A stretch of 64,000 nt of DNA from Lachnospiraceae bacterium (GTDB taxonomy: Bacteria; Bacillota; Clostridia; Lachnospirales; Lachnospiraceae). Position numbers and translations under genes: made by a program. The notes beneath the pieces are model-generated. The model saw nothing but the letters and a program-made list of their open reading frames with translations, made no database searches and was not told the origin of the DNA. Location: positions 62,001-126,000 of the forward strand of contig JAFLTH010000001.1 in assembly GCA_022510525.1 (NCBI GenBank), read 5' to 3'. Shown here piece by piece: positions 7,895-34,153 of the stretch (positions are counted from its first letter, which is position 1; each line of letters begins with the position of its first letter).

Positions 7895-8063
7895 TTGACA
7901 ACCTAAGCAACTTATAATATAATATCCTAAACATTCTTTATTATTCACATTGCCAGCGTATGCTGACAGAGGGATCAAATTCCTGGGAACAGGTCTTTTT
8001 CGTGTATGATAAAGGTGCATCATAAAAATATTGCGTCTACAGGTTACTGTAGGCGCTTTTTTT
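7895..8063 (+). promoter_or_regulatory. Consensus promoter and structured leader RNA (L1)
   Basis: TTGACA at 7895-7900 and TATAAT at 7918-7923 are 17 bases apart, a perfect housekeeping promoter. The roughly 135-base leader holds a hairpin CAGC-GTAT-GCTG near its 5' end, then CCTG-GGAA-CAGG (7982-7993, a GNRA-type tetraloop), then a terminator at 8033. The same order appears in leaders at 19745 and 48917 (minus strand). It probably attenuates the long operon that follows. No known riboswitch class was recognised. Confidence 0.75.
8033..8063 (+). terminator. Leader terminator before the Rad52-like gene
   Basis: A 10-bp stem (8033-8042 with 8047-8056, one G-T pair) with loop GTTA is followed by seven T. 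It sits only 18 bases before the SD of the first gene, so readthrough is needed to express the operon. Confidence 0.85.
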
Positions 8064-8092
8064 ATGAAATATTTTATAAATGGAGGACAATC

Positions 8093-8818
8093 TTGAAAGA
8101 AAGAACAGTAAATGGAATGCCTATACGGGAAGTATGGGCGAAGCTTCAGGCGGAATTTCCTTCGGATGCGATAAAAAGGCATCCGTCAACAGAAATGGAG
8201 TATATTCCGGTTGAAAAGATCGAAGAGCGCCTGAATAACGTGGTGGGTATGGAAAACTGGGACTTTGAACTCATAGCCCCCGTTCAGGTGTGCCGTTTCG
8301 GAGCTGATGGCTTTGAAAGCTGTGTTGCAAGCGGAAAGCTCAGCATCTATGATGATGAGCGTGTTCCCATTGTGCGCAGTACCGGTGGGGCATCGGATGT
8401 CATCTATCCTAAAAATTCAACGCGCCCCACATCTGTTGCAAATGCAGTTGATTCTGCCGTACAGGACGTTTTTAAGCGATGTGCGAAAAGGTTTGGGATT
8501 GGCATGAAAGGGAAAGCATCAGCAAGATTCCAGCAGTCAAGTCGGGAATCGCCGAAGGAAGTGGTCATGAAAGTGACTATCATGGAGCCTTTTAAACCTT
8601 TGCCAAGAGGCGGAGCCAAAGCGAAAGTGTGCTTTGATGGAGAAACACTGGAACTTTATATTTGGAAAAAGCAGTGGGATGACCTTCAGGAAGCATATGG
8701 TGAAAAGTTTCAGATTGGGCGCAAGCTCAATGAGATGACTTTCCGCGGGATACGCAAGGAGTACAAAGGGAGTATGCAGCTTGAATTTGTCTCATTTGAC
8801 AAGAAAGGCGCAGCATGA
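8093..8818 (+). CDS. Rad52/Rad22-like single-strand annealing protein
   Basis: Cytoplasmic recombinase of about 241 aa that should anneal complementary single strands, as phage and element Rad52-like proteins do. The N-terminal 150 residues carry the family pattern: a region YIPVEKIEERLN, a beta-rich stretch, RSTGGAS, and SVANAVDSAVQDVFKRCAKR before FGIGMKG. I start at TTG 8093 because GGAGG lies six bases upstream; the longer in-frame start at 8006 would run through the leader terminator. It is the first gene of the operon and overlaps the next gene by four bases. With the helicase and HolA-like protein at the end of the operon it suggests element-encoded recombination or replication. Confidence 0.85.
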   Translation: MKERTVNGMPIREVWAKLQAEFPSDAIKRHPSTEMEYIPVEKIEERLNNVVGMENWDFELIAPVQVCRFGADGFESCVASGKLSIYDDERVPIVRSTGGASDVIYPKNSTRPTSVANAVDSAVQDVFKRCAKRFGIGMKGKASARFQQSSRESPKEVVMKVTIMEPFKPLPRGGAKAKVCFDGETLELYIWKKQWDDLQEAYGEKFQIGRKLNEMTFRGIRKEYKGSMQLEFVSFDKKGAA

Positions 8819-9273
8819 TGAAAGGAAGCCAGTTTTTCAGAAAGCATGGGATAGAGCCGTATGATGTCTATGTCAACTATCATTACGCTTATGCGCTTTA
8901 CGTGCTGTACTTGATTGCGTCAATGCAGTTGGCAGAGGATGTAGAAGACGGGCTCTGCGTTGATGAGATTGAAGCGGTGATATTGCTTGAAAACCTGAGC
9001 GAAGCAGAGGAAATCATGAAATATTACCGTGAACAACTGAATACGGGATATGTTGGGTTTGACGTTGCTGAAAGGGTCTCAATGAGAGGATGCCGGCTGG
9101 AGCAAGGCAAAATTGTGGGAAGCGCGGAAGATGCAGCCCAGATAGCAGGAATGTGGATACGTGACTATCATAACGACAGGGTGAACCTGTTTATTTATGA
9201 AGTGGGTATTTACATTCTTTTTTTATTACAGAAGGAGGTTGATTTTGGCTTTTTAGCTAGAAAAAAAGCGTAA
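8815..9273 (+). CDS. Hypothetical protein in Rad52 operon
   Basis: Protein of 152 aa with no family I recognise. It is acidic and helical with a tyrosine-rich N-terminal part and a hydrophobic stretch near the C-terminus (VGIYILFLLQ) that looks like a buried helix, not a signal. The start overlaps the stop of the Rad52-like gene (ATGA), so it is translationally coupled and probably works with that protein or in the same process. Confidence 0.75.
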   Translation: MMKGSQFFRKHGIEPYDVYVNYHYAYALYVLYLIASMQLAEDVEDGLCVDEIEAVILLENLSEAEEIMKYYREQLNTGYVGFDVAERVSMRGCRLEQGKIVGSAEDAAQIAGMWIRDYHNDRVNLFIYEVGIYILFLLQKEVDFGFLARKKA

Positions 9274-9275
9274 TT

Positions 9276-10232
9276 ATGTACATCATGGATAAGGATCTGA
9301 AACTTCAGGAGTGGGAGTTTAGTCAAAGAAAACACCTGCCGTATGAGATAAAGCTGAAGCTGTCTGCCATACGAATACGTGAATGGTATGAATATTATGG
9401 AGGAGATGTGTATATCAGCTTCTCTGGTGGTCTGGATTCAACGGTTCTGGTGCATATGGTGGAGCGGGTTCTGGACCGGTCAATACCAAAGGTTTATGTG
9501 GATACGGGGCTAGAATTTCCGGAAATAAGGGCATTTGTCCGTACATTTGATAATGTGGAGATTTTGTATCCGGAAATGAGCTTTAAGGAAGTCCTGCTCA
9601 TCTATGGTTATCCGCTGATCAGTAAGGAAGTGGCGGCAAAGATACGCAAGCTCAGGCATGGCAACTTATCGGAGCGGTACCGGAACTATCTCCTGCATGG
9701 GGATGAGCGTGGGAAACTAGGAAAGCTGTCAGAGTGCTGGAAGTTCCTCATTGATGCGCCGTTTGACATAAGTGAATATTGCTGCATCGTTATGAAGGAA
9801 AAGCCGTTGATTGAGTATTCAAAGAGAACCGGAAGGGTGCCATATATAGGCATCACACAGGACGAAGGCTATATGCGGCAGAGGCAGTACAACCGTACAG
9901 GATGCAATGTGTATCTTGGAGGTAAGCCCAAATCGCAGCCGCTTGGTTTCTGGCCACGGCAGGATATCCTGCGGTATGTGGTGGAAAACAACTTAAGGAT
10001 CTGTCCCGTATATGGGAAGATCGGCGGCGTAGAGGGAGCCTATTATACTACGGGCGAACAGAGGACAGGCTGTATGTATTGCGCTATGGGCTGTCATATG
10101 GAAGCGGAGCCGAACAGATACCAGAGGCTTAAGGAAAATTACCCAAAGGTATACCGGTTTGTAATGGCGCCGATGAGCGAAGGCGGGTTAGGTTTTGACT
10201 ATGTTTTGAATTATTGCAATTTTATTCATTAA
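9276..10232 (+). CDS. PP-loop ATPase, PAPS-reductase-like
   Basis: Protein of 318 aa of the phosphoadenosine-phosphosulfate-reductase/PP-loop group. The PP-loop SGGLDS is at 50-55, a DTGLEFPE substrate-side motif at about 76-83, and a Cys cluster C266-x2-C269-x3-C273 near the end that could bind metal or an iron-sulfur centre. Members on phages and mobile elements are often linked to DNA or nucleotide modification (DndC is one example), but the true reaction here is unknown. It follows the previous gene by two bases inside the operon. A second, diverged PP-loop protein is encoded at 42702. Confidence 0.82.
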   Translation: MYIMDKDLKLQEWEFSQRKHLPYEIKLKLSAIRIREWYEYYGGDVYISFSGGLDSTVLVHMVERVLDRSIPKVYVDTGLEFPEIRAFVRTFDNVEILYPEMSFKEVLLIYGYPLISKEVAAKIRKLRHGNLSERYRNYLLHGDERGKLGKLSECWKFLIDAPFDISEYCCIVMKEKPLIEYSKRTGRVPYIGITQDEGYMRQRQYNRTGCNVYLGGKPKSQPLGFWPRQDILRYVVENNLRICPVYGKIGGVEGAYYTTGEQRTGCMYCAMGCHMEAEPNRYQRLKENYPKVYRFVMAPMSEGGLGFDYVLNYCNFIH

Positions 10233-10247
10233 AAAGGAGGATACGTT

Positions 10248-10526
10248 TTGGAGTTTAGTATGGACAAAAAGCGGTTGCTAAGGGAATTAAATAAGCTTGA
10301 GCCCTTAGATACCAGCCAGCTTGATGAAAAAAGCCGTAAGCTCCGGACACTGTTTCTGGTGTTAGCCGGGGATAAAAGAGTCATTGACGACGTTAATATG
10401 GAAGGCATTTCGGAACTGTTTTGTGAGGCACCAGGGCTTTTGAACTTGTATAGTTCACAATCCGAAAGCTGTTTTGATGCATCGCAGCTGGTTGATTATA
10501 AAAATACCTTGCGTAGAGCGTTGTAA
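10248..10526 (+). CDS. Small hypothetical protein before the E2-like gene
   Basis: Protein of 92 aa, acidic and helical, unrecognised. GGAGG at 10236-10240 is seven bases from TTG 10248, which favours that start over ATG 10260. It lies 21 bases before the E2-like gene and may belong to the ubiquitin-like cassette, where small unknown genes often stand beside the core set. No RING-like or zinc motif is visible. Confidence 0.7.
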   Translation: MEFSMDKKRLLRELNKLEPLDTSQLDEKSRKLRTLFLVLAGDKRVIDDVNMEGISELFCEAPGLLNLYSSQSESCFDASQLVDYKNTLRRAL

Positions 10527-10546: not shown

Positions 10547-11254
10547 ATGGCAGAAATAGCAATATTTTTAAATGAAGAGTTTAACCGTCAGCACAGTTAT
10601 GATTGCGCGAACGTTGTGATTACGGACAATAACGGGAAAAAGAAATCCAAAATAGTTGAGATTGGATCTCTGCTGAAGGCATTTAAATGTGCGGTTAAGA
10701 TGGAGGCGGACAGTGCGCCCATTGGAAAAATCCCATTTGGGTATTATGACGGGGCGATTAGTATGTGCAGCGGCAAGCTGTGCGCAGATATTGTAACCGT
10801 GCTGCCGGCAAGCATGCAGCTGATGAAGTATGAAAATACCCAATATGACGTCTGTGTGCCTTCGCTTGTCTTTTCGTTTCATGTGAATAAGGGAAGGTTG
10901 GAGAGAACTCAAGTTTTCACATTAAAAGACGAGGAAGCGACAGAAGATAGCATACTTTACAGATATCCGTATGGGAATGTGCATGATAACGGAAATGTCT
11001 GCTGGGGGAACAATGCGTTCCCGGTTATTCCTGAAATAAAGAGGCTGGAAACGGCAATGACATTATTTATACAAAGCCCGTGCAATTCCGACCTGTATGA
11101 GTCAAAAAAGTGTATTGGTCAGACAAACGTGCCATTAAGGGAATTATTCGAGCAGCTTCGCAATGTGCAGAGTTTCCCGGAAGAGTATCTCATGCCAATC
11201 AAAAAGCAGAGAGGAAATATGCGGTTAAAAGATTTAATTACATGGAAGAAATAG
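10547..11254 (+). CDS. E2-like conjugating protein (PRTRC-B / Prok-E2 type)
   Basis: Protein of 235 aa resembling PRTRC system protein B and the prokaryotic E2 family D. The stretch HDNGNVCWGN places His146, Asn148 and Cys152 as in the E2 pattern H-x-N...G-x-V-C, so Cys152 is the likely thioester cysteine. By family knowledge it would accept a ubiquitin-like protein from the E1/ThiF protein and pass it to a target. AAAGGAGGG gives a strong start at 10547. It sits directly before the ubiquitin-like/JAMM fusion and the ThiF gene, which makes this role far more likely than sequence alone would. Confidence 0.8.
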   Translation: MAEIAIFLNEEFNRQHSYDCANVVITDNNGKKKSKIVEIGSLLKAFKCAVKMEADSAPIGKIPFGYYDGAISMCSGKLCADIVTVLPASMQLMKYENTQYDVCVPSLVFSFHVNKGRLERTQVFTLKDEEATEDSILYRYPYGNVHDNGNVCWGNNAFPVIPEIKRLETAMTLFIQSPCNSDLYESKKCIGQTNVPLRELFEQLRNVQSFPEEYLMPIKKQRGNMRLKDLITWKK

Positions 11255-11269
11255 AAGGAGGATATTAGA

Positions 11270-13045
11270 ATGAATGATTTAGCAGCATTATTTGGAGTCA
11301 GCGGTAAGGATTTAGCAAACCAGAAAAAAAATGCAAAGGGAAAGAGCAAGGGAAAAGCGGCAAACAAAGAAAAAAATGAAAAGAAACCTGTCAAACAAGG
11401 TGAGCGCTATCCGTTGCCGGTGCGGGTAAGAAGCGGACATATTCGGTGTACGCTCACGCAGGAGCAGTTTGAGGGGAAGACCCTGGGCGAAAGTGAAATA
11501 AAGACGGAGATTCGCAAGCTGTACCCCGAATTGGACGGTCTCCAGTTCAGTCTTGTCAAATTCAGTAATGAACATACCAGGCTGCAGGAAACGATGGAGA
11601 AGCTTGCGGAAGATGCGGATACGGATGCAGAGGAAGAAAGCGTAAAAGGTCAGACTGAGGAAGAAGAACCTCTGGACATTGCAGAGGCTGCGTCTGAAGA
11701 TGAGTATGAAGATGGGGCTGAAGAAACAGATGCGGAACAGGATGATGAATCGGATCTGGAGGAAGACAATGCGGAGGCGAATGAAAGTCCTGACGACAAG
11801 AAAGCAGATACAGCGGGCACTCAAAGCGGAGGATGTTGGGTCAAGCTGGATATCCAGTATCAGGAGGTAAAAAAAGATCAGGCGCTTGCATTTCCGGTAA
11901 CCGTCAAAGTGGGAAAATTCGAGCTGGAGATAAAAGAGGAAACATCACTCGAAGAAATACGTACTGCATGGGTGAAGGAACATCCCGAATATGAAGGCTG
12001 CCATTTCTGCTATGATGAGAGAAATAATCTGTTGTTCCCGTATATGTTAGGCGAAGCCGAAGTTAAGGGGAAGAAGTGCAGCCTGCCCGTCCATATAGGA
12101 TATTTGGATCAGCAGGAAACATACACCGGTGCAGATTTTGGAAATGCGGAGCTGGAGCATGTTACTCTGGATGAAATCCGCAAAGCCTATGGGAAAAAGT
12201 ATCCTGAATTTGAAAATGCAATATTCGCTTACAATGCAGAAGGGAATATGCTGTTTCCCGTACTGGAATTTAAAAAGAATATGGGCAATGAGAGGATCGG
12301 TTTACCTATTCTTGTACGCGGTTCCGGCTTTAAAATGATGGTTGAGAAGGAAGACTTGAAAGGTGCAGAATCGGCAACGCTGGAAGAAATCCGTGCAGTA
12401 ATAGAGCGTGTATATCCGGAGTTTTCAAAAGAACGCACTGAGATGCACTATGATGAAAGGAATTTCGTTATCCCGGTACTCAAAGGCTCTCGGAAAGGCA
12501 TTCAAATGATAAGCGAACGCAAAAACCAGGGGTTTTATGTTGCACAGGGACGTGACGGCTTTACTTACAGGATAGAACAGATGCCGTATGGCTGTTTTGA
12601 TTGCAGGGAAGACGGTTCGGATGTAGATTTCAGGATGACCAGAGAAAAGATCCCTTACGGGATTCTGCGGGATGTTGTTGCCTTTTTTAAGAGAAATCCC
12701 CGCAATGAAGCTGCTGTGCAGATTTTTTATGATGTGGATACAGGAAAGTATGAAATATACTACCCAGAACAGAAAGTGACATCTGCAAGCGTAGTGTTCA
12801 CGCGCAGCCATGATATGGAAAGTGACAAAGTATTGGTTATGGACATACATAGCCATGGAACCATGCAAGCCTTTTTCTCGTCCATAGATGATCATGACGA
12901 GAAAGGCACACGTCTGTTTATGGTCTTTGGAAATCTTGATAAAGAAGATGTTACCTATAAGCTGCGTGCCGGAATTGCCGGGAATTACAAAATGCTGAAA
13001 TTAAGAGATGTTTTTGAAATGGAGGATAAGACAAATGAAAAGTGA
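11270..13045 (+). CDS. Four ubiquitin-like domains fused to a JAMM peptidase
   Basis: Polyprotein of 591 aa. A Lys-rich start (10-45) leads into Ubl-1 (about 47-100), then a very acidic linker (110-180), Ubl-2 (about 200-258), Ubl-3 (270-335) and Ubl-4 (343-404). Each repeat has two strands, a helix of the type L-x-E-I-R...YPE, and an end like DERNNLLFP or NAEGNMLFP, matching PRTRC-C/Prok_Ub beta-grasp proteins. Residues 415-585 form a JAB/MPN domain with the full zinc motif: His527, His529, Ser537 and Asp540 (H-x-H-x7-S-x2-D). The peptidase may cut its own Ubl chain or remove modifiers. No C-terminal Gly-Gly is seen on any repeat. SD AAGGAGG; it overlaps the next gene by 11 bases. Confidence 0.85.
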   Translation: MNDLAALFGVSGKDLANQKKNAKGKSKGKAANKEKNEKKPVKQGERYPLPVRVRSGHIRCTLTQEQFEGKTLGESEIKTEIRKLYPELDGLQFSLVKFSNEHTRLQETMEKLAEDADTDAEEESVKGQTEEEEPLDIAEAASEDEYEDGAEETDAEQDDESDLEEDNAEANESPDDKKADTAGTQSGGCWVKLDIQYQEVKKDQALAFPVTVKVGKFELEIKEETSLEEIRTAWVKEHPEYEGCHFCYDERNNLLFPYMLGEAEVKGKKCSLPVHIGYLDQQETYTGADFGNAELEHVTLDEIRKAYGKKYPEFENAIFAYNAEGNMLFPVLEFKKNMGNERIGLPILVRGSGFKMMVEKEDLKGAESATLEEIRAVIERVYPEFSKERTEMHYDERNFVIPVLKGSRKGIQMISERKNQGFYVAQGRDGFTYRIEQMPYGCFDCREDGSDVDFRMTREKIPYGILRDVVAFFKRNPRNEAAVQIFYDVDTGKYEIYYPEQKVTSASVVFTRSHDMESDKVLVMDIHSHGTMQAFFSSIDDHDEKGTRLFMVFGNLDKEDVTYKLRAGIAGNYKMLKLRDVFEMEDKTNEK

Positions 13046-13742
13046 TATTATCATTGTCGGGTGTGGTGGCACAGGAAGCCACTATATTAAAGAGCTTGGA
13101 AGATACCTTTACGGAAACGGATGCCTGCAGAAGCATGATATCCGCATAGTTCTGGTTGACGGTGATCTGGTGGAAGAGAAGAATCTGGTAAGGCAGGCTT
13201 TTCTGCCGCAGGATATAGGTCTCAACAAAGCGCAGATCATGGCTGAGATGCTCTTTCAGGTTTATAATCTGACCGTAGATTACTATGACGGTTTTATTGA
13301 CTGCGCAAAGGATATTGAAAAACTCGTGAGGGATAATTCACTCGTTTTTCTGGTGGGGTGTGTAGACAACCACCAGTGCAGGCAGAGTATGCACAATTTT
13401 TATGCCAACAGGGAGCACTGCATCTATATGGACAGCGCTAATGAGTACCAGTCCGGGGAAATTGTTATTGGTTCACGGATTGGCGGGATGGATATGTACC
13501 CTGACAGGGCAGATTATTTTCCGGATGTGCTGCAGGAAGGAGCCGTAAAAAGGAGCGAGGAAAGCTGCGAGGTCTTGAATCAGGCAGAACCGCAGCATCT
13601 TGTCACAAACCAGTTTGCGGCACTTATCCTGTTAATCAATACGATAAAGTTTCTCTCGGAGGATTGGCCGGGCGGAATTGTTTTTTTTGATGCGTTCAAG
13701 TGCTACTCAATGGACCGGACGCCCAGACAGGAGGCATCATGA
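13035..13742 (+). CDS. ThiF/E1-like adenylating enzyme (PRTRC-ThiF type)
   Basis: Protein of 235 aa with a Rossmann ATP-binding motif GCGGTG (9-14), the E1 signature DGDLVEEKNLVRQ (Asp42, Asp44, Asn50, Arg53, Gln54), Lys65 and Asp111. This is the adenylation core of ThiF/MoeB/E1 enzymes, which activate the C-terminus of a ubiquitin-like protein. Cys178 in EESCEV is a candidate for the thioester site. No paired CxxC zinc motif is visible. I use ATG 13035 because GGAGG precedes it by nine bases and the core motif starts eight residues in. It overlaps the end of the Ubl/JAMM gene, so the two are coupled. Confidence 0.85.
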   Translation: MKSDIIIVGCGGTGSHYIKELGRYLYGNGCLQKHDIRIVLVDGDLVEEKNLVRQAFLPQDIGLNKAQIMAEMLFQVYNLTVDYYDGFIDCAKDIEKLVRDNSLVFLVGCVDNHQCRQSMHNFYANREHCIYMDSANEYQSGEIVIGSRIGGMDMYPDRADYFPDVLQEGAVKRSEESCEVLNQAEPQHLVTNQFAALILLINTIKFLSEDWPGGIVFFDAFKCYSMDRTPRQEAS

Positions 13743-14533
13743 GTTTAGAAGATATTCTTGCCATTGATGCGTGCCCGGTTGATGAAGAAATACTATGTGA
13801 TATTAGCGATGCGGTAGCATCGCATTTTTCTCATTATTCATGTTACGGTCTGTCACGTGAAAAATGGGTACGTTTTCTTCTGTTCTACCGTTATATCGAA
13901 AAATTTATCCTAGCCATGGAAATACCTGTATCATTGCCGGTCATCAATTACTGCCTGTCAAAAAAGGAAGGTTCTGTGAGTATAGAAAAGTATGTCGAAG
14001 GGGGTCAGTCAGGAGATTTTGCCAGGGGGATTTTTACCCAGGTAATGACGGAATGCGGCTGGCAATACAGGATTGTGGAGTATAACGGGCAATCATGGGT
14101 ACGGACTGCGGAGACAGGGATATGTAAGTCGGCAGAGTGGAAAAGTGTGGTAAAGCTGGCACGGAAAATGAAAAAAATCATAAAGCCAGGCAGAAGTGAT
14201 ACAAAATACCATATTTTCTGGAATTATCAGCTGGCATGGTATCTGCAGTTCAGGCAGCGCAATCCCCGGAAAGTGGAACTGGTCTTTTTGGAAGGGGATA
14301 AAAAAATCATGGAACTGCTGGATCAAATTGGTAGTCCGATGAATATCAGATTTGAAGAAAATTTATGTATGCTGGATGCGGATAAATATTTACTTGGCGT
14401 GATGGAAGGATATTTCAATGGGCATAAGGTAAATTTTTGGACAGTAAAATACCTATTCCTGCTCAGAATCGTAGTTCTTGACAAACTGCTGAAATATGCA
14501 GGGAAATTATTTGAAAAGGAGGAGAAGTCATGA
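13739..14533 (+). CDS. Hypothetical protein, paralogue A next to E1
   Basis: Protein of 264 aa that I do not recognise. Its first residues, MSLEDILAIDACPVDEEIL, are nearly the same as those of the next gene, and both share a later GWQ-centred patch and a hydrophobic C-terminal helix region. They are therefore diverged copies of one family. It overlaps the ThiF stop by four bases and has CAGGAGG before ATG 13739. Its place inside the ubiquitin-like cassette suggests an adaptor, a regulator or a target of the modifier; that is inference. Confidence 0.75.
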   Translation: MSLEDILAIDACPVDEEILCDISDAVASHFSHYSCYGLSREKWVRFLLFYRYIEKFILAMEIPVSLPVINYCLSKKEGSVSIEKYVEGGQSGDFARGIFTQVMTECGWQYRIVEYNGQSWVRTAETGICKSAEWKSVVKLARKMKKIIKPGRSDTKYHIFWNYQLAWYLQFRQRNPRKVELVFLEGDKKIMELLDQIGSPMNIRFEENLCMLDADKYLLGVMEGYFNGHKVNFWTVKYLFLLRIVVLDKLLKYAGKLFEKEEKS

Positions 14534-15354
14534 CGCTCGAAGATATTTTGAAAATAGATACCTGCCCCTTTGATGAGGATGTGCTGGACGAGTGCGTCGC
14601 AGGAGAGTACAATGCTTCGTATGAAATACGGAGCAGCCTGTGCAATCTGATTTTTCGCTATATAAACCTTTTTTGGGAAAAGTATCAGCCGGATCGTGTC
14701 AGGACGTTTGCCCCTGATCGCTTAGTAGGCACAAACGATGTTGATGAGGATGAATTTGTGCTCTGGGTAGAAGAAGCTCATGATATTATGTGTACAGCAG
14801 CCACTGTCAACGGTTGGCAGTGTGTCTACCTGCGTTATTATTCGGGGGATATTGAGCTTTCAGATGCTCATGGTAAGGGTACAGAAGCCGAGCAGTTTCA
14901 TGAGGCGTATATGAAGTATCTGGATGAATGCGAAATGGAAGACTATGAAAGAAAGATTTTCGAGAATGAAGAAGAGTTAGTGAAAGATGTCGCATGTTAT
15001 ACTGACGAAGCTGTAATTGGCATTTTGCGCAATGAGAAATTGGCGGCATACAATGCCCTTAAGAAAAAAAATGCAGCTATGATACAGGAGGTGTGTAAAG
15101 AAGAGGATCTTCATATAAGCGAGCTGGAGCATGATATCTGGATGCCGTTCTGGGTTTGCTTTGTTGAAGAGAAAAAAGAGTATGAGGGAGAGGAGTATGG
15201 TATTTTCATTCTTGGCAGCGACGGTTACAATTATTACCATTTTGACCGTTTTGACCCTAACTGGGTATGCAAGGCATATGTGCTGGATCAACTTCTCGCT
15301 CTTGCATTAACGAAACTGGAGGCTTATATTGCCACTAAAAAATTGGTGGCATAG
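14530..15354 (+). CDS. Hypothetical protein, paralogue B next to E1
   Basis: Protein of 274 aa, diverged copy of the preceding gene. It starts MTLEDILKIDTCPFDEDVL and shares the GWQ patch and the C-terminal pattern with LDQLLAL. It is strongly acidic in the middle (about 120-155). It overlaps paralogue A by four bases and has AGGAG before ATG 14530. A short hairpin GGGGCGGCGGAAAGCTGCCCC with T tail follows at about 15361, just before the SD of the helicase gene, so expression may step down there. Confidence 0.75.
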   Translation: MTLEDILKIDTCPFDEDVLDECVAGEYNASYEIRSSLCNLIFRYINLFWEKYQPDRVRTFAPDRLVGTNDVDEDEFVLWVEEAHDIMCTAATVNGWQCVYLRYYSGDIELSDAHGKGTEAEQFHEAYMKYLDECEMEDYERKIFENEEELVKDVACYTDEAVIGILRNEKLAAYNALKKKNAAMIQEVCKEEDLHISELEHDIWMPFWVCFVEEKKEYEGEEYGIFILGSDGYNYYHFDRFDPNWVCKAYVLDQLLALALTKLEAYIATKKLVA

Positions 15355-15403: not shown

Positions 15404-18073
15404 GTGGATTATATAAGGAGCAAAGACCTGATAGCCGGATTGGAATGTAGCAGAAAGTACAAGCTGCAAAGACTTTCATTGAAAGACCATAATGCTAGAA
15501 ATCTGTGTTTCAGTGAGGCGATCAGAAGAATGACTGAGTGCATTGCAGAGGGAAAGGAAAAAAGTGTCATCCTGAACGAACTGCGGGTGTATTTAGAGGA
15601 AGCGTATCAGGAGGATTGGTTCCCTCTCTGCTGGCAGCGGAAAAGGGCAATTTCACGGGAACTTGGGTTCTTTGAACGGTTCCTTGGGAATTTCCAGCTT
15701 CCTTCGTCATCAAAAATATCAGCAGGTACAAAGGTTTCCTTGAATCTGCCGCTGTGTCATGGTGAAATTGATGCGGCAGGGATTTCCGGGACGGCAGATC
15801 TGCTGGTGGAGCAGCCGGACGGGAGCATCACCGGTGTTATTTTGTGCCGGAATTTTTGCAAGCCATATTCGTACCGGGCGAGAAAGTTGCAGCATAAAGT
15901 GGAGAACAGTCTGGAAATGTTAGTCCTGATGGAAGGGCTCGGCAGGAAATATCCCCAAAGGGATATCAGGGTAATGATGGTAAGGCTCGCATCTTCCGCG
16001 GATAAACCGGACCAGCTTGCTGAATTTGAAAAAAAGAAAGGTGATAACATTATTCAGATTTCCAGCGGGGAATATATGGAGGGGCATCCGGAAGGAGTAC
16101 CAGAGCATATACAGCAGATTATCGGATTGACGGAGGAATGTTCCTGTGAAGACTGTTTTTATGAAAATGTCTGCAAGCCGCCCAATATTGTTTTTGCAAG
16201 GCAGGAGGAAGAGGCGCAGGCAAAGAAAAAGGAGATTTCATTTTCCAAAGAACAGGAAAAGGTGATAAACCATGCAGAGGGACCCTTGCGTGTATGCGCA
16301 GGACCCGGAAGCGGAAAAACCGCAGTTTTGGTGGGGCGGATACGGAAGCTTGTGGAATCAGGAGTGCCGGCGGAGAAAATCCTTGCGATCACCTTCACAA
16401 AGAAAGCGGCTCAGGAAATGCAGGAGAGGGTACAGGCAGGGCAGGATGTCAATATTTATACGTTGCACGCACTGGCATTTGGGATTCTTACCCAATATGA
16501 ATTCCTGATAGGTCCGGTACGACTTGCAGGACTTGTGGACTGCAAAAACCTGTTAATGAAAGTCTTAAACCATGCGCCGCTGATATCCGGTGTCAGCTAT
16601 GAAGGACTCACCATGCGGTATGGATTGATTGCGACACTTTTAAAAGACTTCGAGTTCATCAATAAGCACGGGATAGAGGCGTATTCCAGCGCATACAGCA
16701 AAAAGGATATGGAAGGAATTATGAAGGTCAAGGAGCTGTATGATGCCGCCTTTAAGGAAATGGGGTACATTACCTTTGATGATCAGGTGAGCATGGCGGT
16801 GGAGCTTTTGAAAAACAATCCGGGTATTCTGGAGACGGTGCAGAACCAGTATGACTATATTATGGTGGATGAAGTGCAGGATCTTGATGATGCTCAAGCG
16901 GAATTTGTCAGGCTTTTAGTGAAGAAACCGGCTAATAATGTGATGATCTGCGGTGATGCTGACCAGTCGATATATGCATTTAGGGGCGGAAGTAACCGGT
17001 TTATGCTGGATTTTCCCAGCCTGTTTTCCGGGACTGAGGATATTCTGCTCTCACGCAACTATCGTTCCTCGGAAGAGATTGTCGCAATGGCATCCAGCCT
17101 GATAGAAAAGAACAAGGAGCGGGTACCGATGCAGCTCGCCGCATCTTTTTCCACGGGGATACAGGCAATCCATATCCCAAACTTCAATGACTGCAGATTT
17201 GGAGCACTGATAAAGGAAATACATGGAAAGGGCTATGCGTACTCGGACATTGCAGTGATTGCCCGGACGAATAAGGAACTGAACAACCTGTGTAAGATAG
17301 TGGATAAGGATGCCGCCCTGACCGGGGTAGCCGTTCCGCTTGAACGCCCGAAGCTGTATTTGCGGGAAGACTGCGTATTTCAGATGCTTTTGGACTTATT
17401 GGAGCTTGCAGTTAAGGGAATGAGTCAGGACAGGGCACTGTACCGGCTTTTAAGCACTATGGGATGTTCCGTGGAAAAGACAGACAGAAAGCTCAGCATC
17501 TATGAGGATCACGTAACCGAGGGATTGATATATGATTTTTACGGGGGAGAATCCAGCAGATACTTTCTGGAGGCACAGGATCCGCTGATAAAGGCATATG
17601 GTCGTATCTACCGAGCCTTGCAGGTGTTGAAAAAACCTTTAAAACAGGCGTTGTGGGAACTGGAGCCGTTCTTTTTTTCAACAGGGCTTTGTACAACAGA
17701 GATACTTGAAAAGATAGAAGACATCATGTATGAGAAAAAGATTGGGCATTATAGGCAGCTATACGATATTATGTCGGCGATGAAAGTCTTTGAGGATGAT
17801 ACGAGGATTTATTACAGTTCAGGGGAACGTTCCCAAGTCCATATGCTGACTGCCCATGACGCGAAAGGTAAAGAATTTCCGGCAGTAATCTTATACGGGA
17901 TAGACAACTTTGAATGCGGTGATGTGGAAGAAGACCGCAGGCTTTTATATGTGGCAGTGACCAGGGCAAAAAGGGTGCTGTTCATTCTTGAAGAATATCC
18001 GGGAAAAAGCAATTTCCTAAAGGATATTGGGAAATACGTTTCTGTAAATAGGAGAGCACGCTATGAAAAATGA
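15404..18073 (+). CDS. UvrD/AddB-like SF1 helicase with iron-sulfur N-terminus
   Basis: Protein of 889 aa. The N-terminal 260 residues look like a Cas4/AddB nuclease domain: Cys15 with C248-x2-C251-x5-C257 gives the usual four cysteines of a 4Fe-4S site, but the expected E-x-K of the nuclease is not seen (the region reads GVILCRNF), so cutting activity is doubtful. From 281 on it is a UvrD/Rep helicase: Walker A AGPGSGKT (299-306), TFTKKAAQEM, Walker B MVDEVQD, GDADQSIYAFRGG and C-terminal VAVTRAK. It probably unwinds DNA in recombination with the Rad52-like protein. SD AGGAGG precedes GTG 15404. Confidence 0.88.
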   Translation: MDYIRSKDLIAGLECSRKYKLQRLSLKDHNARNLCFSEAIRRMTECIAEGKEKSVILNELRVYLEEAYQEDWFPLCWQRKRAISRELGFFERFLGNFQLPSSSKISAGTKVSLNLPLCHGEIDAAGISGTADLLVEQPDGSITGVILCRNFCKPYSYRARKLQHKVENSLEMLVLMEGLGRKYPQRDIRVMMVRLASSADKPDQLAEFEKKKGDNIIQISSGEYMEGHPEGVPEHIQQIIGLTEECSCEDCFYENVCKPPNIVFARQEEEAQAKKKEISFSKEQEKVINHAEGPLRVCAGPGSGKTAVLVGRIRKLVESGVPAEKILAITFTKKAAQEMQERVQAGQDVNIYTLHALAFGILTQYEFLIGPVRLAGLVDCKNLLMKVLNHAPLISGVSYEGLTMRYGLIATLLKDFEFINKHGIEAYSSAYSKKDMEGIMKVKELYDAAFKEMGYITFDDQVSMAVELLKNNPGILETVQNQYDYIMVDEVQDLDDAQAEFVRLLVKKPANNVMICGDADQSIYAFRGGSNRFMLDFPSLFSGTEDILLSRNYRSSEEIVAMASSLIEKNKERVPMQLAASFSTGIQAIHIPNFNDCRFGALIKEIHGKGYAYSDIAVIARTNKELNNLCKIVDKDAALTGVAVPLERPKLYLREDCVFQMLLDLLELAVKGMSQDRALYRLLSTMGCSVEKTDRKLSIYEDHVTEGLIYDFYGGESSRYFLEAQDPLIKAYGRIYRALQVLKKPLKQALWELEPFFFSTGLCTTEILEKIEDIMYEKKIGHYRQLYDIMSAMKVFEDDTRIYYSSGERSQVHMLTAHDAKGKEFPAVILYGIDNFECGDVEEDRRLLYVAVTRAKRVLFILEEYPGKSNFLKDIGKYVSVNRRARYEK

Positions 18074-18956
18074 GTTAGTTTTTGGAAATGAACCTTATCT
18101 GCTCAATGCATACAGGGCAGAGATAGTCAAGGGAATCGCAATGCCGGAGTTTAATGTCATGGAAGCCGAACAGTTTACACAGATAGAAAGGGATTTTGCA
18201 AAGCAGATGCCATTTATGGGAAGCCGCAGAGTATTAATTGTGTCTTTGGAAAAATTGGTAGCAAATGAGCTTTTAGAAAAATACCTGAAAGATCCTGCGC
18301 CTAAGACGGATTTATATATTTTTGCAGAAGAGATAGATAAAAGGATTTCTCTGTATAAGAAATTTCCAAAAGAGGGTATAAAGCAGTTTGACAAGGATAT
18401 TGGTATACTGCAGAAATGGATTTTAGGGTACATAAAAAGGCAGAATTGCAAAATCACTAAGGACGCATACGATGAATTCCTTATGCGCATCAATTATGAA
18501 ATGGAGGATGTAAACTTATATCACGTAAAATCAGCATTGAGCCGTCTGTGTACTACGCAGGACGAAATAACAGCTGATCTGGTGCGGCGGCTGGTGCAGT
18601 CAAACGAGAAAGAGGATATATTCCAGTTGATATGCCTGATAGACAAGGGTAAGGTTACGGAATTATTTCATCAAGCAGATTTGATCATCCAGAATGGCAG
18701 CCAGAACGTTATAGGTACGCTTTCGCTCCTTTTGAGGAGTTATCGTATTTTGTATAAAGTCAATGTGTGTGGATGTTCCCTGCAGGATGTAGGTGTTCAT
18801 CAGAGGACATATATCCCGAAAATGACACTGGAGCAGGCTGACGCAGGTATTGACATCATTCAAAAGGCAGTAAATGGGATAAAAAACGGGAGATACGCAC
18901 AGGACTTTGCCTTCCGTCTGTGTTTATCACAATTGTGCCAATTAAAACAAAAATGA
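18063..18956 (+). CDS. DNA polymerase III delta subunit-like (HolA-like)
   Basis: Protein of 297 aa resembling HolA, the clamp-loader subunit that opens the sliding clamp. It starts KNELVFGNEPYL, where HolA proteins show a similar G-x-E-x-x-L motif, and has the alpha-helical middle and C-terminal third expected of the family, with a length near the usual 320-340 aa. Sequence match is moderate, so the role may be divergent. It overlaps the helicase gene by 11 bases and is the last gene of the operon before a strong terminator. An element-borne copy suggests self-directed replication. Confidence 0.75.
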   Translation: MKNELVFGNEPYLLNAYRAEIVKGIAMPEFNVMEAEQFTQIERDFAKQMPFMGSRRVLIVSLEKLVANELLEKYLKDPAPKTDLYIFAEEIDKRISLYKKFPKEGIKQFDKDIGILQKWILGYIKRQNCKITKDAYDEFLMRINYEMEDVNLYHVKSALSRLCTTQDEITADLVRRLVQSNEKEDIFQLICLIDKGKVTELFHQADLIIQNGSQNVIGTLSLLLRSYRILYKVNVCGCSLQDVGVHQRTYIPKMTLEQADAGIDIIQKAVNGIKNGRYAQDFAFRLCLSQLCQLKQK

Positions 18957-24403: not shown

Positions 24404-24967
24404 TTACGAATATTGAATTTTACCTATAATCAAGGATATAGACATCAAAGTAAAGACGAGCGCTTCTAATAGCAGATATCTTGTGTTGTTTGATAGCAAA
24501 AAGACTACAAATATGGTAAGGCTCATAAGCAGAATGATGTTAGCACGTTTGTTAAAAAATAGATTATCCTCCTCGTCAACGTACCGGTTAGGGTGGTCCA
24601 CAGATCCTATCACTTTGATTATCGCTAAAGAAATGAGGTACAAAATACACGAAAACAGCGGTGTCGCCGAAAAATACTTTACGATGCATAGGATGCCTGC
24701 TAAGGACAGACAGGATAAAAGTAAACAGGAAATATAATGCTCCATGTGAAAACCGCCTGAATAGGCGCGTAAGGGGATAAAAAAGAGGAAAAATGCAATG
24801 CATTCAAGCTTCATACCCAATAAAACGGCAATAATGATACTGCATATAATATTTATGGCAAGTTCTAGAAAACTCTGAAAGCCGTACTGGTAAATCTCAA
24901 ACTCGCTTTCCTCGATAACGTCTTTTGCGAGTATATAATCCGTTAATTTTCTGGATAATCGTTCCAT
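24404..24967 (-). CDS. agrB: AgrB-type peptide-processing membrane protease (locus 1)
   Basis: Integral membrane protein of 187 aa that should cut and cyclise the AgrD precursor peptide. It has the family motif RAYSGGFH (catalytic His), a Cys in the following helix region (HYISCLL) and about four to five membrane segments; length is normal for AgrB. AAGGAGAATGGG precedes ATG 24967. It is the last gene of a minus-strand operon after the XRE, AgrA-like and AgrC-like genes. Its likely substrate, AgrD, is encoded 3 kb away in the other direction at 27876. Confidence 0.85.
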   Translation of the reverse strand: MERLSRKLTDYILAKDVIEESEFEIYQYGFQSFLELAINIICSIIIAVLLGMKLECIAFFLFFIPLRAYSGGFHMEHYISCLLLSCLSLAGILCIVKYFSATPLFSCILYLISLAIIKVIGSVDHPNRYVDEEDNLFFNKRANIILLMSLTIFVVFLLSNNTRYLLLEALVFTLMSISLIIGKIQYS

Positions 24968-25049
24968 ACTCCCATTCTCCTTTATACAGCAAATGTACTC
25001 AAATCTTCCTTAATTATAATAGCACTCGTTATAAATACGGGTTTCCGCG

Positions 25050-26363
25050 TCATTTTTTCTCTTTAGCGCCGTACATCACTACCGATACCTTAAATACACC
25101 ATTCCGGCTCTCCGCATCCACCTGTCCGTGGTAGGCTTCCACCGCCTGTTCCACAGAGGACAGTCCCAACCCGTGACTCCTGCAATCTTTTTTTGTGGTG
25201 ATGTATTTCCCGGCACGATCTTTCTTTCGTTCCCCACGGTAGGGATTTATGACAACCAGCATGAGGACTTCCTTCTCATACGAGGCATCCAGCGTTATAT
25301 AGCGATTTCCTTCCTCTATTTCCCGGCATGCCTCCAGTGCATTGTCCAGCAGGTTCCCAAGCACGATGGTAAGGTGTCCGCCCCGGAAGGGCAGTTCGGC
25401 AGGCAGGAACACGTTGGCGACAAAGGTGATGCCCTCCGCTTTGGCGATACCGCATTTATGGTTCACAAGGTTGTCCACAATGATATTACCCGTGCAAGAA
25501 ACGTCATTTGTCCGACGATTCAGAGACTCCTGTAGTATCCCGCGCACGTATTCTTCCGCCTGTCTTGTGTCATTCACCTGCAGCATTCCCAGAAGACTCG
25601 ACATATGGTTCTTCATGTCGTGCCGCAGCTTCCGCATCTCTGTATCGTATTCCGTTCGCTCCTGTGCCTGCCTGTTCAGAAGATCAAGCTCCTGTTCATA
25701 GAGCAGGTTCTTCTCTTGTGCCTCTGCATCGTCCACCATATGGTCATAGACTTCAAATATCATATAAATCAGTATGAGGAGCAGTAGGCTTGAGATGATG
25801 GCAAAGACGTCGTACTCCTTATGCTGTGATGTTATCAGGAAGATGTTGTGCATCAGGTAGATGCTGCCGGCGGGGACAGAGAGGACTGCCACGGCGTATT
25901 GAAACGGTATGTCCATTCGCTCCATTCGCTCCATACGTTTCACATAGTGTCTCGCGATGACGGCAAGGAAAAACATGAGCATCTGTGAGATTACCGTCCC
26001 TGCCGTCCGCTGTTCCCATCCATCCATTCCGATCAGACTGAGGACGATACCTGTAATGATCTCCACAAGCATCCACACGGCGCATATCAGCATTGAGAAG
26101 ATGCAGAGCCTTTTCAGGCTTGCCTTATAGGAAACAGAACTGATTATAAGCACAAGCGCTACATTGAGGGAGAGCATTACTGGCGGAGGTATGGTGATTC
26201 CCAACACGGGAATTGTCTGCAGGATATAGTAGATGGTCCACGCTGCGAACCGGAACGGATTTCCGGATGGCTGGGAAAAAAAGGTTTTCATGAACTTGTG
26301 CAAGATGAGCAGATAAAAACACGATGTAAACAGATTGCCAACATAAACACACACCAGATTCAC
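25050..26363 (-). CDS. agrC: AgrC-like GHKL sensor kinase (locus 1)
   Basis: Protein of 437 aa: about six membrane helices in the first 200 residues, a coiled linker, then a kinase domain with the His in RKLRHDMKNH, an N-box LGNLLDNALEAC and a glycine motif GLGLSSVEQAVE. This is the layout of peptide-sensing AgrC kinases. It overlaps the AgrA-like gene by four bases and is followed by AgrB. The likely ligand is the cyclic peptide derived from the AgrD at 27876. Confidence 0.85.
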   Translation of the reverse strand: MNLVCVYVGNLFTSCFYLLILHKFMKTFFSQPSGNPFRFAAWTIYYILQTIPVLGITIPPPVMLSLNVALVLIISSVSYKASLKRLCIFSMLICAVWMLVEIITGIVLSLIGMDGWEQRTAGTVISQMLMFFLAVIARHYVKRMERMERMDIPFQYAVAVLSVPAGSIYLMHNIFLITSQHKEYDVFAIISSLLLLILIYMIFEVYDHMVDDAEAQEKNLLYEQELDLLNRQAQERTEYDTEMRKLRHDMKNHMSSLLGMLQVNDTRQAEEYVRGILQESLNRRTNDVSCTGNIIVDNLVNHKCGIAKAEGITFVANVFLPAELPFRGGHLTIVLGNLLDNALEACREIEEGNRYITLDASYEKEVLMLVVINPYRGERKKDRAGKYITTKKDCRSHGLGLSSVEQAVEAYHGQVDAESRNGVFKVSVVMYGAKEKK

Positions 26364-28537: not shown

Positions 28538-30064
28538 ATGACTAAGCAGAATCAATATATTGCCATAGACTTGAAATCCTTTTATGCGTCCGTAGAGTGC
28601 GTGGAGCGGCATTTGGATCCCCTGACCACAAATCTAGTGGTGGCGGATGCCAGCAGAACAGAAAAGACGATATGCCTGGCGGTATCTCCTTCACTGAAAG
28701 CATACGGAATATCGGGGAGAGCCCGGCTGTTTGAAGTAGTGCAAAAAGTAAGGGATATCAACAGGGAACGAAGGAACAAGGCACCGGGCAGACAATTCAA
28801 AGGATCTTCCTATTATGCACCAGAGCTTGCGGAGCATCCGGAACTGGAGCTTTCCTACATCATAGCGCCGCCCCGGATGGCGTTTTACATGGAGTACAGT
28901 ACAATCATTTACAATATTTACCTGCAGTATATTGCTCCAGAGGATATTCATGTTTACTCCATTGATGAGGTATTTATGGATGTGACGCATTATCTGCAGA
29001 CGTATCAGCTGACAGCACGAGAGCTGGCATCAAAGATCATTCAAAATATCCTGACAGCAACCGGAATAACGGCTACAGCCGGTATCGGGACAAATCTATA
29101 TCTTTGCAAGGTGGCTATGGATATTATGGCGAAGCATGTGCCGGCGGATGAAAACGGTGTCCGCATAGCGCAGCTTGATGAAATGAGTTACAGGAAATAT
29201 CTGTGGAATCACAGACCGCTTAGCGATTTTTGGAGGGTAGGGCACGGTTATCAGCGGAAACTGGAGGAGAATGGACTTTATACAATGGGAGATATTGCCA
29301 GATGTTCCCTCGGATGTCCGGGAGAGTACCACAATGAGGAACTATTATACCGCTTGTTCGGAATCAATGCGGAACTGCTTATTGACCATGCCTGGGGCTG
29401 GGAACCTGTCACTATAGATCTGATTAAGAAATATAAGCCGGAAACTAACAGTTTGAGTTCCGGTCAGGTGTTGAAATGCCCTTATGACTTTGAAAAGGGC
29501 AAATTGATTGTTAGGGAAATGACGGATTTGCTTGTGCTTGACTTGGTGGACAAGAAGCTGGTCACGGATCAGATGGTGTTGAGCATTGGATATGATATAG
29601 AAAATCTCACGAACAAAGAGATTAGGAAAAACTACAAAGGAGACGTCACTGTGGACCATTATGGCAGGATGGTTCCCAAACATGCCCACGGTTCTACAAA
29701 TTTGGGTCGCAAGACCTCATCCGCTAAACTGATAACAGATGCGATGATGGAGCTGTATGACCGGATTGTAGACCCCAAACTCTTGGTCCGCAGGGTCACG
29801 GTGGCAGCGAATCATTTGGTAGAGGAAAGCATGGTAAAGGAGGCTCCAGTCTTTGAGCAGATGAACCTGTTTACGGATTATGCTGCTCTGGAGAAGGAAC
29901 AGAAGGAAGAGAATGCCCGTCTGGAAAAAGAACGGAAACTTCAGGAAGCCATGCTGTCAGTGAAAAAGAAGTTTGGCAAGAACGCCATTTTGAAAGGCAT
30001 GAATCTTCAGGAAGGTGCCATGACCATAGAGCGGAATAGCCAAATCGGAGGACACAAGGCATGA
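28538..30064 (+). CDS. Y-family DNA polymerase (UmuC/ImpB type)
   Basis: Error-prone lesion-bypass polymerase of 508 aa. The palm motifs are clear: AIDLKSFYASVEC with the first metal Asp, and YSIDEVFMDV with the Asp-Glu pair. A helix-hairpin-helix-like thumb and little-finger domain follow, and a Lys/Glu-rich tail may bind the clamp. AGGAGGAG precedes ATG 28538. It overlaps the YolD-like gene by four bases, the usual SOS mutagenesis pair of Firmicute elements. A LexA-like box lies upstream. Confidence 0.92.
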   Translation: MTKQNQYIAIDLKSFYASVECVERHLDPLTTNLVVADASRTEKTICLAVSPSLKAYGISGRARLFEVVQKVRDINRERRNKAPGRQFKGSSYYAPELAEHPELELSYIIAPPRMAFYMEYSTIIYNIYLQYIAPEDIHVYSIDEVFMDVTHYLQTYQLTARELASKIIQNILTATGITATAGIGTNLYLCKVAMDIMAKHVPADENGVRIAQLDEMSYRKYLWNHRPLSDFWRVGHGYQRKLEENGLYTMGDIARCSLGCPGEYHNEELLYRLFGINAELLIDHAWGWEPVTIDLIKKYKPETNSLSSGQVLKCPYDFEKGKLIVREMTDLLVLDLVDKKLVTDQMVLSIGYDIENLTNKEIRKNYKGDVTVDHYGRMVPKHAHGSTNLGRKTSSAKLITDAMMELYDRIVDPKLLVRRVTVAANHLVEESMVKEAPVFEQMNLFTDYAALEKEQKEENARLEKERKLQEAMLSVKKKFGKNAILKGMNLQEGAMTIERNSQIGGHKA

Positions 30065-31053: not shown

Positions 31054-31395
31054 ATGAGAGGAAAAAAGAATAGCGCTACTACATCAAATCTGACGGGAGC
31101 AGTCAAGGGAGAAGCTGGGGCGGTAAACACTGTGAAAAAGACTGGCAAAGGACAGAGGGCTACGCGGGAAAAGAAAAAATCGAAGAAAGAAGAGCTAAGG
31201 CCTGAAGTTATTATACAATATGCCGGAAACGCAGCACAGGTGGAAGAGATTGTGGAGCAAGTCAAGAAATTGTATGTGGAGGACGGGCATTACTTGGCAT
31301 CTCTGAAATCTCTCCAAGTATATGTAAAACCTGAAGAAAACGCTGCTTATTATGTTATTAACAAAAAACAGAACGGAAAAATTGACTTATTCTAA
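31054..31395 (+). CDS. DUF6465-like protein
   Basis: Protein of 113 aa: a basic, low-complexity first half rich in Lys, Thr and Ala, and a conserved second half (EVIIQYAGNAAQVEEI, then LQVYVKPEENAAYYVIN) that I recognise as the DUF6465 pattern of Lachnospiraceae. The basic tail suggests nucleic-acid binding. CAGGAGG precedes ATG 31054 and a terminator follows. Function unknown. Confidence 0.78.
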   Translation: MRGKKNSATTSNLTGAVKGEAGAVNTVKKTGKGQRATREKKKSKKEELRPEVIIQYAGNAAQVEEIVEQVKKLYVEDGHYLASLKSLQVYVKPEENAAYYVINKKQNGKIDLF

Positions 31396-31404
31396 AAAAT
31401 CGGG

Positions 31405-31438
31405 GGTGCTCCTAATACGATACTGGGAGCACCTTTTT
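31405..31438 (+). terminator. Terminator after DUF6465-like gene
   Basis: GGTGCTCC (31405-31412) pairs with GGAGCACC (31426-31433), followed by five T. The next 440 bases up to 31880 hold no supported gene; a gapped palindrome around CCCATCCTTGATGGG lies near 31818. Confidence 0.82.
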
Positions 31439-31880
31439 GTTGTTCTTCTATTTTATTTTTGGGTGATTGGAGCTTCGACATACTCTTATTTCAAACGCCA
31501 GAACGTCGCAGAACTTATATAATATAAAGACGTTAAGCTGGGTTATTTCATTTGAGTAGAAGGCATCGATTTGTTGCGAGTTCATTTCTGTCTTGTGGCC
31601 TTTTCTTAAACCTTTAATTTTCAATATTTCTTTTAAATTAATCTATATATATCCGTTATTTCTTCTTCTTGCCACTTCCTAATCAAGTATATATCTGAGA
31701 CAATGAAAGAAATGAAAAAAGAGAAAAGCGGAAAGCGTGGACATCTGCAAAGGTGTGTGAAGACTTGAGCAAAAAGAACAAACTGGTGTATCATACCGTT
31801 GAAATATATCATATCAGCCCATCCTTGATGGGTGATTGATATCATCAGTATAATACACCGGTTATTAAATAATCCTATTC

Positions 31881-32948: not shown

Positions 32949-33129
32949 TGTGTTGACCGTACATTGCAAATTGGATAGTTACTGATATTAAAATAATACC
33001 ATAATGGCGCTAAATACGCAAATAATGGTTGGGTAATTTTGACATTGGAAAGCTTGAGAGTTTTACAATTTTATGTTAACATAATAGGAGTATAAATGAT
33101 TTATATTTTAGGTTATCAAGGAGGCTATT

Positions 33130-34071: not shown

Positions 34072-34153
34072 GTACATATGGTAAGGATTCTCAAAAGCTG
34101 TTGCGATTTATTTTGTAACAGCTTGTTTTTCTATATGAATGGAGGGAATTGCT

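Follow-up and report, generated by a model that had tools for sequence, protein, structure and literature searches.

A predicted tetra-ubiquitin-like precursor and its conjugation enzymes within a replication and recombination operon of a Lachnospiraceae bacterium

The stretch of DNA under study, hereafter the window, comprises 64,000 nucleotides from a contig of a Lachnospiraceae bacterium (JAFLTH010000001.1, positions 62,001 to 126,000). Between window positions 8006 and 18956 it carries an operon of eleven co-directional genes, all on the + strand, the middle of which encodes an E2-like conjugating enzyme, a polyprotein in which four ubiquitin-like domains (Ubl) precede a JAMM peptidase of the JAB family, and a ThiF/E1-type adenylating enzyme. 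A Rad52 gene opens the operon and a HolA-like gene closes it, the intergenic gaps ranging from −11 to 49 nucleotides when the E1 start is set at 13035 and that of the following gene, pA, at 13739. The proposal we favour, to which we give slightly less than an even chance, is that the polyprotein processes itself into a tetra-Ubl which is conjugated through the E1 and the E2, the likely targets being replication and recombination proteins of the probably mobile element that carries the operon. The initial annotation of this DNA had described the three genes as a self-contained cassette tied to Rad52, AddB-like helicase and HolA-like genes. On rechecking, the coordinates and frames of the three genes were confirmed and the tie was borne out, all of these genes (the helicase being of UvrD type) lying in one operon; the cassette is however the centre of this operon rather than a unit of its own.

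The polyprotein (11270..13045, 591 residues) is a real conserved gene, as 112 relatives were found, and an alignment of the window sequence with 72 of these (n=73) provided the repeat profiles. Along the chain, Ubl1 is followed by an acidic linker, Ubl2, Ubl3, Ubl4, a Lys-Gly pair and the JAB; the repeats correspond to residues 46–112 (11405..11605, with a last strand that is not evident), 200–267 (11867..12070), 268–341 (12071..12292) and 342–410 (12293..12499), the fourth adjoining the JAB. Comparison of the repeats with one another using hhalign gave probabilities of 90–99% for all six pairs (97.8% for repeats 1 and 4, 98.8% for 2 and 3, 97.4% for 3 and 4), against 0.1–1.0% for the JAB-N region taken as control. 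Repeat 4 also aligns with the Ubl domain of plasmid-encoded JAB proteins that have just one such domain (98.9%, E 2.2e-17), and the Ubls of these one-Ubl JAB proteins in turn align with six separate Ubl proteins taken together (96.7%, 4e-10), two of which, members of PRTRC protein C, match PF14454 Prok_Ub at 4.1e-17 and 8.5e-18. As the direct hhalign comparison of the window repeats with the separate Ubl set gave no signal (0.6–9%), the tie between the repeats and Prok_Ub goes through the one-Ubl JAB intermediates. Among the profile comparisons suggested by the initial annotation, those with Prok-E2_D, JAB and ThiF returned matches, and that of repeat 4 alone with PF14454 returned none at E 1. 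The hhalign comparisons uphold the four annotated ubiquitin-like domains as homologous repeats, for which a beta-grasp fold is putative. Sequence and profile searches retrieved no credible relative of solved structure for the polyprotein or for the E2, which excludes nothing.

The remainder of the chain (12500..13042) consists of the JAB-N region and the JAMM peptidase domain that had been annotated, and is matched by PF14464 Prok-JAB (E 5.1e-7, 30 bits versus a cut-off of 25) and by TIGR03735 PRTRC_A (E 5.4e-19). The JAMM motif, HSH-x7-S-x2-D, is intact at residues 527–540 (HSHGTMQAFFSSID, 12848–12889); H527, H529, S537 and D540 are invariant in 73/73 sequences together with the candidate glutamate E480, and E517 is conserved to the same extent.

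The boundary between repeat 4 and the JAB-N region is marked by Lys409-Gly410 (12494..12499), again invariant in the 73 aligned sequences. The pair is found in all 108 relatives which carry the repeat 4 marker motif (P0031, P0107, P0110 and P0112 being devoid of it), and a second set of 53 Ubl-JAB proteins from Bacilli has KG in 52 cases and NG in one; sites read by eye in 25 fetched loci are KG in 24 and NG in one. Also, eight separate Ubl open reading frames (ORFs), part of which were recognised solely by place and alignment, end at the equivalent glycine, six with KG and two with MG: ...EKMG in L054 and L056, ...QKKG in L058, ...AKG in L063 and L083, ...KKG in L075 and, for PRTRC protein C, ...AKG in L069 and ...TKG in L070. 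The JAB is the next ORF after the Ubl in both L063, from Metabacillus, and L083, from Peribacillus, and the gene is therefore naturally split at the predicted cut. The gene preceding the E1 in L059 is no evident Ubl and has no terminal glycine. Since the boundary glycine is conserved and separate Ubl ORFs stop there, Gly410 is predicted to be both the mature modifier end and the point of cleavage, so that the JAMM domain would cut after Gly410 and free a tetra-Ubl with a single-glycine end. A second cut at the end of repeat 2 is disfavoured, as Gly267 is kept in 69/73 sequences and Lys266 in just 48/73, for which reason we prefer one main site; repeat 3 has no site of this kind.

The E2 (10547..11254) matches PF14460 Prok-E2_D with E 1.4e-13 (51.3 bits versus a cut-off of 25), a profile that is specific as a genome probe, having matched 0/14 control genomes. 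An AlphaFold2 (AF2) model of the protein (pLDDT 86.2, pTM 0.72) has E2/UEV folds as nearest structures, 33 of the 34 top matches being so identified by title, with modest Z scores; the modelled structure agrees with the annotated E2-like character and points to an E2/UBC fold. The E2 motif had been described as Cys152 within an HxN..GxVC pattern. Indeed, Cys152 (codon 11000–11002) is kept in the 32 aligned sequences, but the HxN element does not stand, since His146 varies and it is instead Asn144 (codon 10976–10978) that is kept in 32/32; the motif is better written Y-P-[FYL]-G-N144-V...G-x-[VI]-C152. Extending the comparison to 30 E2s, we find the cysteine in every one, with Asn occupying position 144 in 25 of them and His in the other five. 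Downstream of Cys152 the window's E2 has no histidine, whereas several of the aligned relatives do have one.

The E1 (13035..13742, 235 residues) was likewise correctly assigned, as it matches PF00899 (E 4.1e-15) and TIGR03736 PRTRC_ThiF (E 7.8e-26) and carries a GCGGTG motif, Asp111 and Cys178 (codon 13566–13568), both its ATP-binding residues and its cysteine being conserved; the Cys178 column is identical in all 24 E1s aligned, of which two are near copies. Its start is probably the ATG at 13035 rather than position 13008, which results in an overlap of 11 nucleotides with the Ubl-JAB stop. As a genome probe TIGR03736 was useless, matching 240/299 genomes with none over the cut-off. A weak match of the E1 to UBA5 chains (E about 0.002) was also obtained; the UFM1-UBA5 pair, in which a minimal E1 acts with a single-glycine Ubl, offers an analogy to the window's E1.

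Taken in order, the proposed reactions would start with the JAMM domain cutting its own four-repeat precursor after Gly410; with the window's operon, the product released would be a tetra-Ubl, because only the last repeat keeps a Lys-Gly end in all the relatives aligned. The E1 would then activate the mature Ubl and hold it as an E1 thioester, the E2 would take it over as an E2 thioester, an isopeptide bond would be formed between Ubl and a target lysine, and the same JAMM could later remove the Ubl from its target. As candidate targets we propose clamp, clamp-loader or annealing proteins, a step with less support than cleavage and transfer.

A ThiF-like E1 and a single C-terminal glycine are equally what a sulfur carrier would have, and the E1 might thiocarboxylate the Ubl glycine in a ThiF/ThiS-like manner, with the sulfur passed to the PAPS-reductase-like (PP-loop) protein encoded at 9276..10232 for the modification of nucleic acids or nucleotides on the element. 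That protein matches PF01507 with E 2.1e-15 and gives partial PADLOC matches to BrxP and SspD, and annotated PAPS-reductase genes recur near the module in L060 (17929–18762) and L069 (10382 onward). We nevertheless regard the sulfur carrier as improbable: a Cys-bearing E2-D, which such a carrier does not need, accompanies the E1 (Cys in 30/30 E2s), the tetra-Ubl fusion argues in the same direction, and a PAPS gene is named in none of six plasmid stretches from Bacillaceae and Planococcaceae, where many neighbours are annotated 'hypothetical'.

The targets suggested for conjugation derive from the neighbourhood of the module, whose exact make-up was, according to the initial annotation, not known to have been described as a working system. 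This make-up is not unique to the window: related contigs share it, and simpler versions occur on plasmids of Bacillota and on further contigs. All eleven genes are found in the same order in contigs L006 and L007, and the last eight in L005, which begins there; the Rad52, E1, helicase and HolA proteins of these contigs are 85–90% identical to those of the window, the E2 72%, the Ubl4-JAB 77%, and the small protein upstream of the E2 (p92), pA and pB 59–64%. On plasmids of Halobacillus, Cytobacillus, Niallia and Terribacillus the order is Rad52, DnaN, a small gene, a further gene, E2, Ubl-JAB and E1; Planococcus has Rad52 and DnaN by hidden Markov model in the same Rad52-DnaN arrangement, where a group II intron gene separates E2 from Ubl-JAB, and Virgibacillus has DnaN with no Rad52 detected. 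A second arrangement, E1-DnaX-HolB, one gene and a DnaN-like gene (clamp-like match under cut-off), is present in Lysinibacillus, Sporosarcina and, split by an intron, Alkalihalophilus; the E1 overlaps DnaX in the first two, and in Peribacillus DnaX and HolB adjoin E1 fragments. In a third, found in L055 and L082, JAB and E1 are followed at some distance by E2, Rad52, an SMC-like ATPase and a primase-like gene, L057 being alike by order and Rad52 match. L074 has E2-Ubl-JAB-E1, two uncharacterised genes sized like pA and pB, more unknown genes and then YqaJ, RecD2 and ERF, and in L054, which has the standalone-Ubl version, DnaN is nearby and a ribonucleotide reductase was recognised by eye. An ORF adjoining HolA in L053 that looked like a clamp by eye was rejected, as it has no DnaN match. 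In L061, L080 and L083, on plasmids of Alkalihalophilus, Planococcus and Peribacillus, the cassette or the DnaX gene beside it is interrupted by, or contains, genes for a group II intron maturase (ltrA).

We have quantified this proximity for the families DnaN, DnaX/HolB and Rad52 over 33 loci, 27 of which have at least one tested family on the same record or contig. In 17 loci the distance to the E1 (in one record, to the JAB) is at most 6 kb, against 4.0 expected from random placement among these 27, corresponding to a Fisher p of 3e-5 over all 27. W17–W26, ten records out of a set of 47, had been chosen blind to neighbours, with the exception of Peribacillus and Virgibacillus, which had previously shown DnaX. 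HolA was dropped from the final test because W17–W26 were not searched for it; a first round of 19 records with HolA included gave p 0.013 and 0.135. Six loci with the tested families unmatched (W13, W15, W16, W17, W23 and G958) are counted in the 33 and stand outside the proximity test, whereas the near copies of the window (L005–L007), L074 (DnaX far off), L011 and L068 are not counted.

A number of these results weigh against a role at the replisome. When related records are collapsed, the proximity p rises to 0.037 (median p) or 0.105 (worst p), and the nearest tested gene lies more than 6 kb off in 10/27 records. DnaN, DnaX/HolB and Rad52 were unmatched in the records of Bacillus velezensis, Lactiplantibacillus and Brevibacillus, in the short G958 contig and in two PRTRC plasmids, in which it is ParB, instead of replication genes, that is paired with the module. 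On the side of the modifier, four of the six separate Ubls have no PF14454 match by profile search. The collapsed statistics, the distant records and the ParB pairing speak for a tie to replication genes that is only housekeeping: the module would have partition, transfer or host proteins as its targets, with replication genes nearby simply because large plasmids cluster them. We consider this reading unlikely, though deserving attention, in view of the tight co-directional and overlapping operons (in the window, eleven genes with gaps of at most 49 nucleotides) and of the E1 that overlaps DnaX in Lysinibacillus and Sporosarcina. Altogether, the statistics for a link between the module and replication genes are suggestive, and the layout of the operons makes a stronger case for it.

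In eukaryotes, ubiquitin and SUMO switching of PCNA places Ubl marks on a clamp-type protein. By analogy of logic, and with no homology of targets being claimed, tagging in the proposed system could let the element halt its replisome, switch it or take it apart during recombination or on meeting damage. Extended to a general statement, namely that large plasmids and related elements control their own replisomes by a JAMM-processed tetra-Ubl placed on clamp, clamp loader or Rad52, the idea is tentative and we would put it at about one chance in three; that it represents a bacterial counterpart of PCNA switching is, as an analogy, a possibility of the same doubtful standing. If true, a Prok-E2_D system housed in replication and recombination operons would bring Ubl modification to the replication forks of bacteria, and bacteria would have a self-processing polyubiquitin-like precursor with the protease on the same chain; the Lys-Gly boundary, together with the natural gene splits, makes for a precise and easily tested prediction. 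In the parts of the literature covered by our search, the scope of which stopped short of the surveys that Burroughs, Iyer and Aravind published later, we found neither a tetra-Ubl-JAB precursor with a Lys-Gly boundary nor a Prok-E2_D or PRTRC system tied to clamp, clamp-loader or Rad52 genes.

Among known systems, the PRTRC cassette (ParB-related, ThiF-related; NCBIfam TIGR03735, TIGR03736 and TIGR03737) is plasmid-borne and shares with the present one a homologous set of E2-D, JAB and ThiF and, tentatively, a Ubl ending in Lys-Gly; repeat 4 of the window ends in KG, and its tie to Prok_Ub (PRTRC protein C) is through the intermediate profile only. The window differs in having four Ubls fused to the JAB, and Rad52, helicase and HolA in place of ParB. 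PRTRC membership was rejected, as the models score below their curated cut-offs (90.9/144.75 bits for ThiF, 68.5/101.8 for protein A, the JAB, and 51.6/131.45 for protein B, the E2) and no ParB match was obtained in the operon genes scanned (Pfam on all but HolA, NCBIfam on all but the helicase). The operon type 6d of Iyer 2006 had outlined an E1/E2/JAB/Ubl set (PMC1779556). According to the portions of that article consulted, it resembles the window in an E1 that is not fused to the adjacent JAB, a Cys-bearing E2 without the classical histidine, a JAB with an N-terminal domain and a beta-grasp Ubl with a C-terminal glycine (PMC1779556). In the same portions, type 6d has an absolutely conserved histidine downstream of the E2 cysteine, missing in the window's E2, a standalone Ubl where the window has a tetra-Ubl-JAB precursor, and no stated link to replisome genes such as those of the window operon; the words 'Rad52' and 'ParB' are absent from the main text (PMC1779556). 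A standalone Ubl is found in the window relatives L054, L056, L058, L063, L075 and L083. We have thus filed the operon as neither PRTRC nor type 6d, given the PRTRC models under cut-off and the E2 without downstream histidine, and the best reading of the sequences is that of a sister system to both.

Bacterial Ubl conjugation systems of known role are, in the parts of the literature surveyed, devoted to anti-phage defence (BilABCD, CBASS, Bub), and the module could by the same token conjugate phage or sensor proteins in a Bil/CBASS-type manner, mobile elements being mere carriers. BilABCD and Bub/type 6e are indeed E1/E2/Ubl/JAB sets, some with tandem Ubls (PMC11354881, PMC13373217 and PMC1779556, as far as consulted), and the E1 gives weak PADLOC matches to E1-E2 models (best 9.2e-7). 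As described in those sources, however, type 6e has an inactive E2 and a JAB mostly fused to the E1, whereas the window's E2 keeps Cys152 and its E1 is separate, and the Bil Ubl is a separate two-domain protein, unlike the JAB-fused Ubls of the window. Among the PADLOC Bil models only BilD was matched, by the E1 (0.0077, 13 bits), the E2 and Ubl-JAB having no PADLOC match at E 0.01; as replication and recombination genes are moreover neighbours across several different arrangements, a defence function appears rather unlikely.

The proposed conjugation would take place on a likely mobile element with replication genes of its own. On the contig carrying the window, which is 147 kb long, there are also genes for a DnaE-type polymerase III alpha subunit (5.7e-104), DnaX (gamma/tau), a HolB-like (delta'-like) protein and a weak DnaN-like clamp (PF00712, 1.6e-4, below cut-off), and DnaN, DnaX and HolA occur as further full copies on other contigs; the delta subunit of the operon is hence probably part of a polymerase III set carried by the element. 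A ParB_N-like gene lies on the contig outside the operon (PF02195, E 2.2e-4, 21.7 of 26.3 bits). The E2 is present in 2/299 genomes of the family and 4/391 of the class (two over cut-off), own genome included in both cases, and within the 112 polyprotein relatives one cluster was found on 614 contigs; this distribution, with an E2 rare in genomes, fits a mobile element, which likely carries the operon. As no overlap of the contig ends points to circularity, we do not claim a plasmid for the window itself. In the viral contigs searched there were no E1 relatives and one polyprotein relative (L074). The large phages Salmonella phage Arash and Bacillus phage KLEB27-3 (L011, L012) encode a PRTRC_A-like JAB; in KLEB27-3 a ThiF gene adjoins the JAB, which shows no Ubl domain by eye.

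With respect to the other operon genes, the first (8006..8818) encodes a Rad52-type single-strand annealing protein (PF04098, E 5.6e-7), whose orthologue in L006 and L007 has the same place and is 85–87% identical, and the second (8815..9273) a protein of 152 residues without Pfam or NCBIfam matches, 82–83% identical in L006 and L007. Immediately upstream of the E2, a small protein (10248..10526) with a hydrophobic C-terminal tip (...RRAL) has no Pfam or NCBIfam match above cut-off. We have gathered 26 proteins of 88–132 residues encoded at this place in the window, L005, L008, L009, L052–L060, L063–L066, L074–L080, L083 and L084, grouped by position and not by homology; candidates from L061, L062, L067 and L070 and a second one in L058 were excluded. 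The final residue is hydrophobic in 26/26 and preceded by F or Y in 20/26. Many of those encoded on plasmids of Bacilli have an acidic tip with FI or FF (...DDFI), which may resemble the C-terminal tail of the single-stranded DNA-binding protein (SSB), the window's being ...RRAL.

After the E1, pA (13739..14533), whose ATG overlaps the E1 stop, and pB (14530..15354) are fast-evolving; pA has no Pfam or NCBIfam family match and is 60% identical in L005–L007, and gene comparison shows that the first 19 residues of pB are 68% identical to the pA start. They are followed by the UvrD-type SF1 helicase (15404..18073; PF00580, E 3e-54), which has an N-terminal extension of 280 residues with a cysteine cluster (C246, C248, C251 and C257), resembling by eye a RecB/AddB-type nuclease remnant, and whose top PADLOC match is a GajB helicase. 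The last gene (18063..18956) encodes the clamp-loader delta subunit (HolA-like; TIGR01128, 112.7 bits versus a cut-off of 80). Elsewhere on the same contig, an AgrB and GHKL kinase pair is found at 24404–26363, a Y-family polymerase (IMS) at 28538–30064, a TIR-like protein, below cut-off, at 33130–34071 and a type II/IV secretion ATPase at 62970–63935; a four-gene run outside the window, at 31091–34557 of the contig (C1), resembles by eye TsaC/TsaD/TsaE/TsaB (tRNA t6A synthesis).

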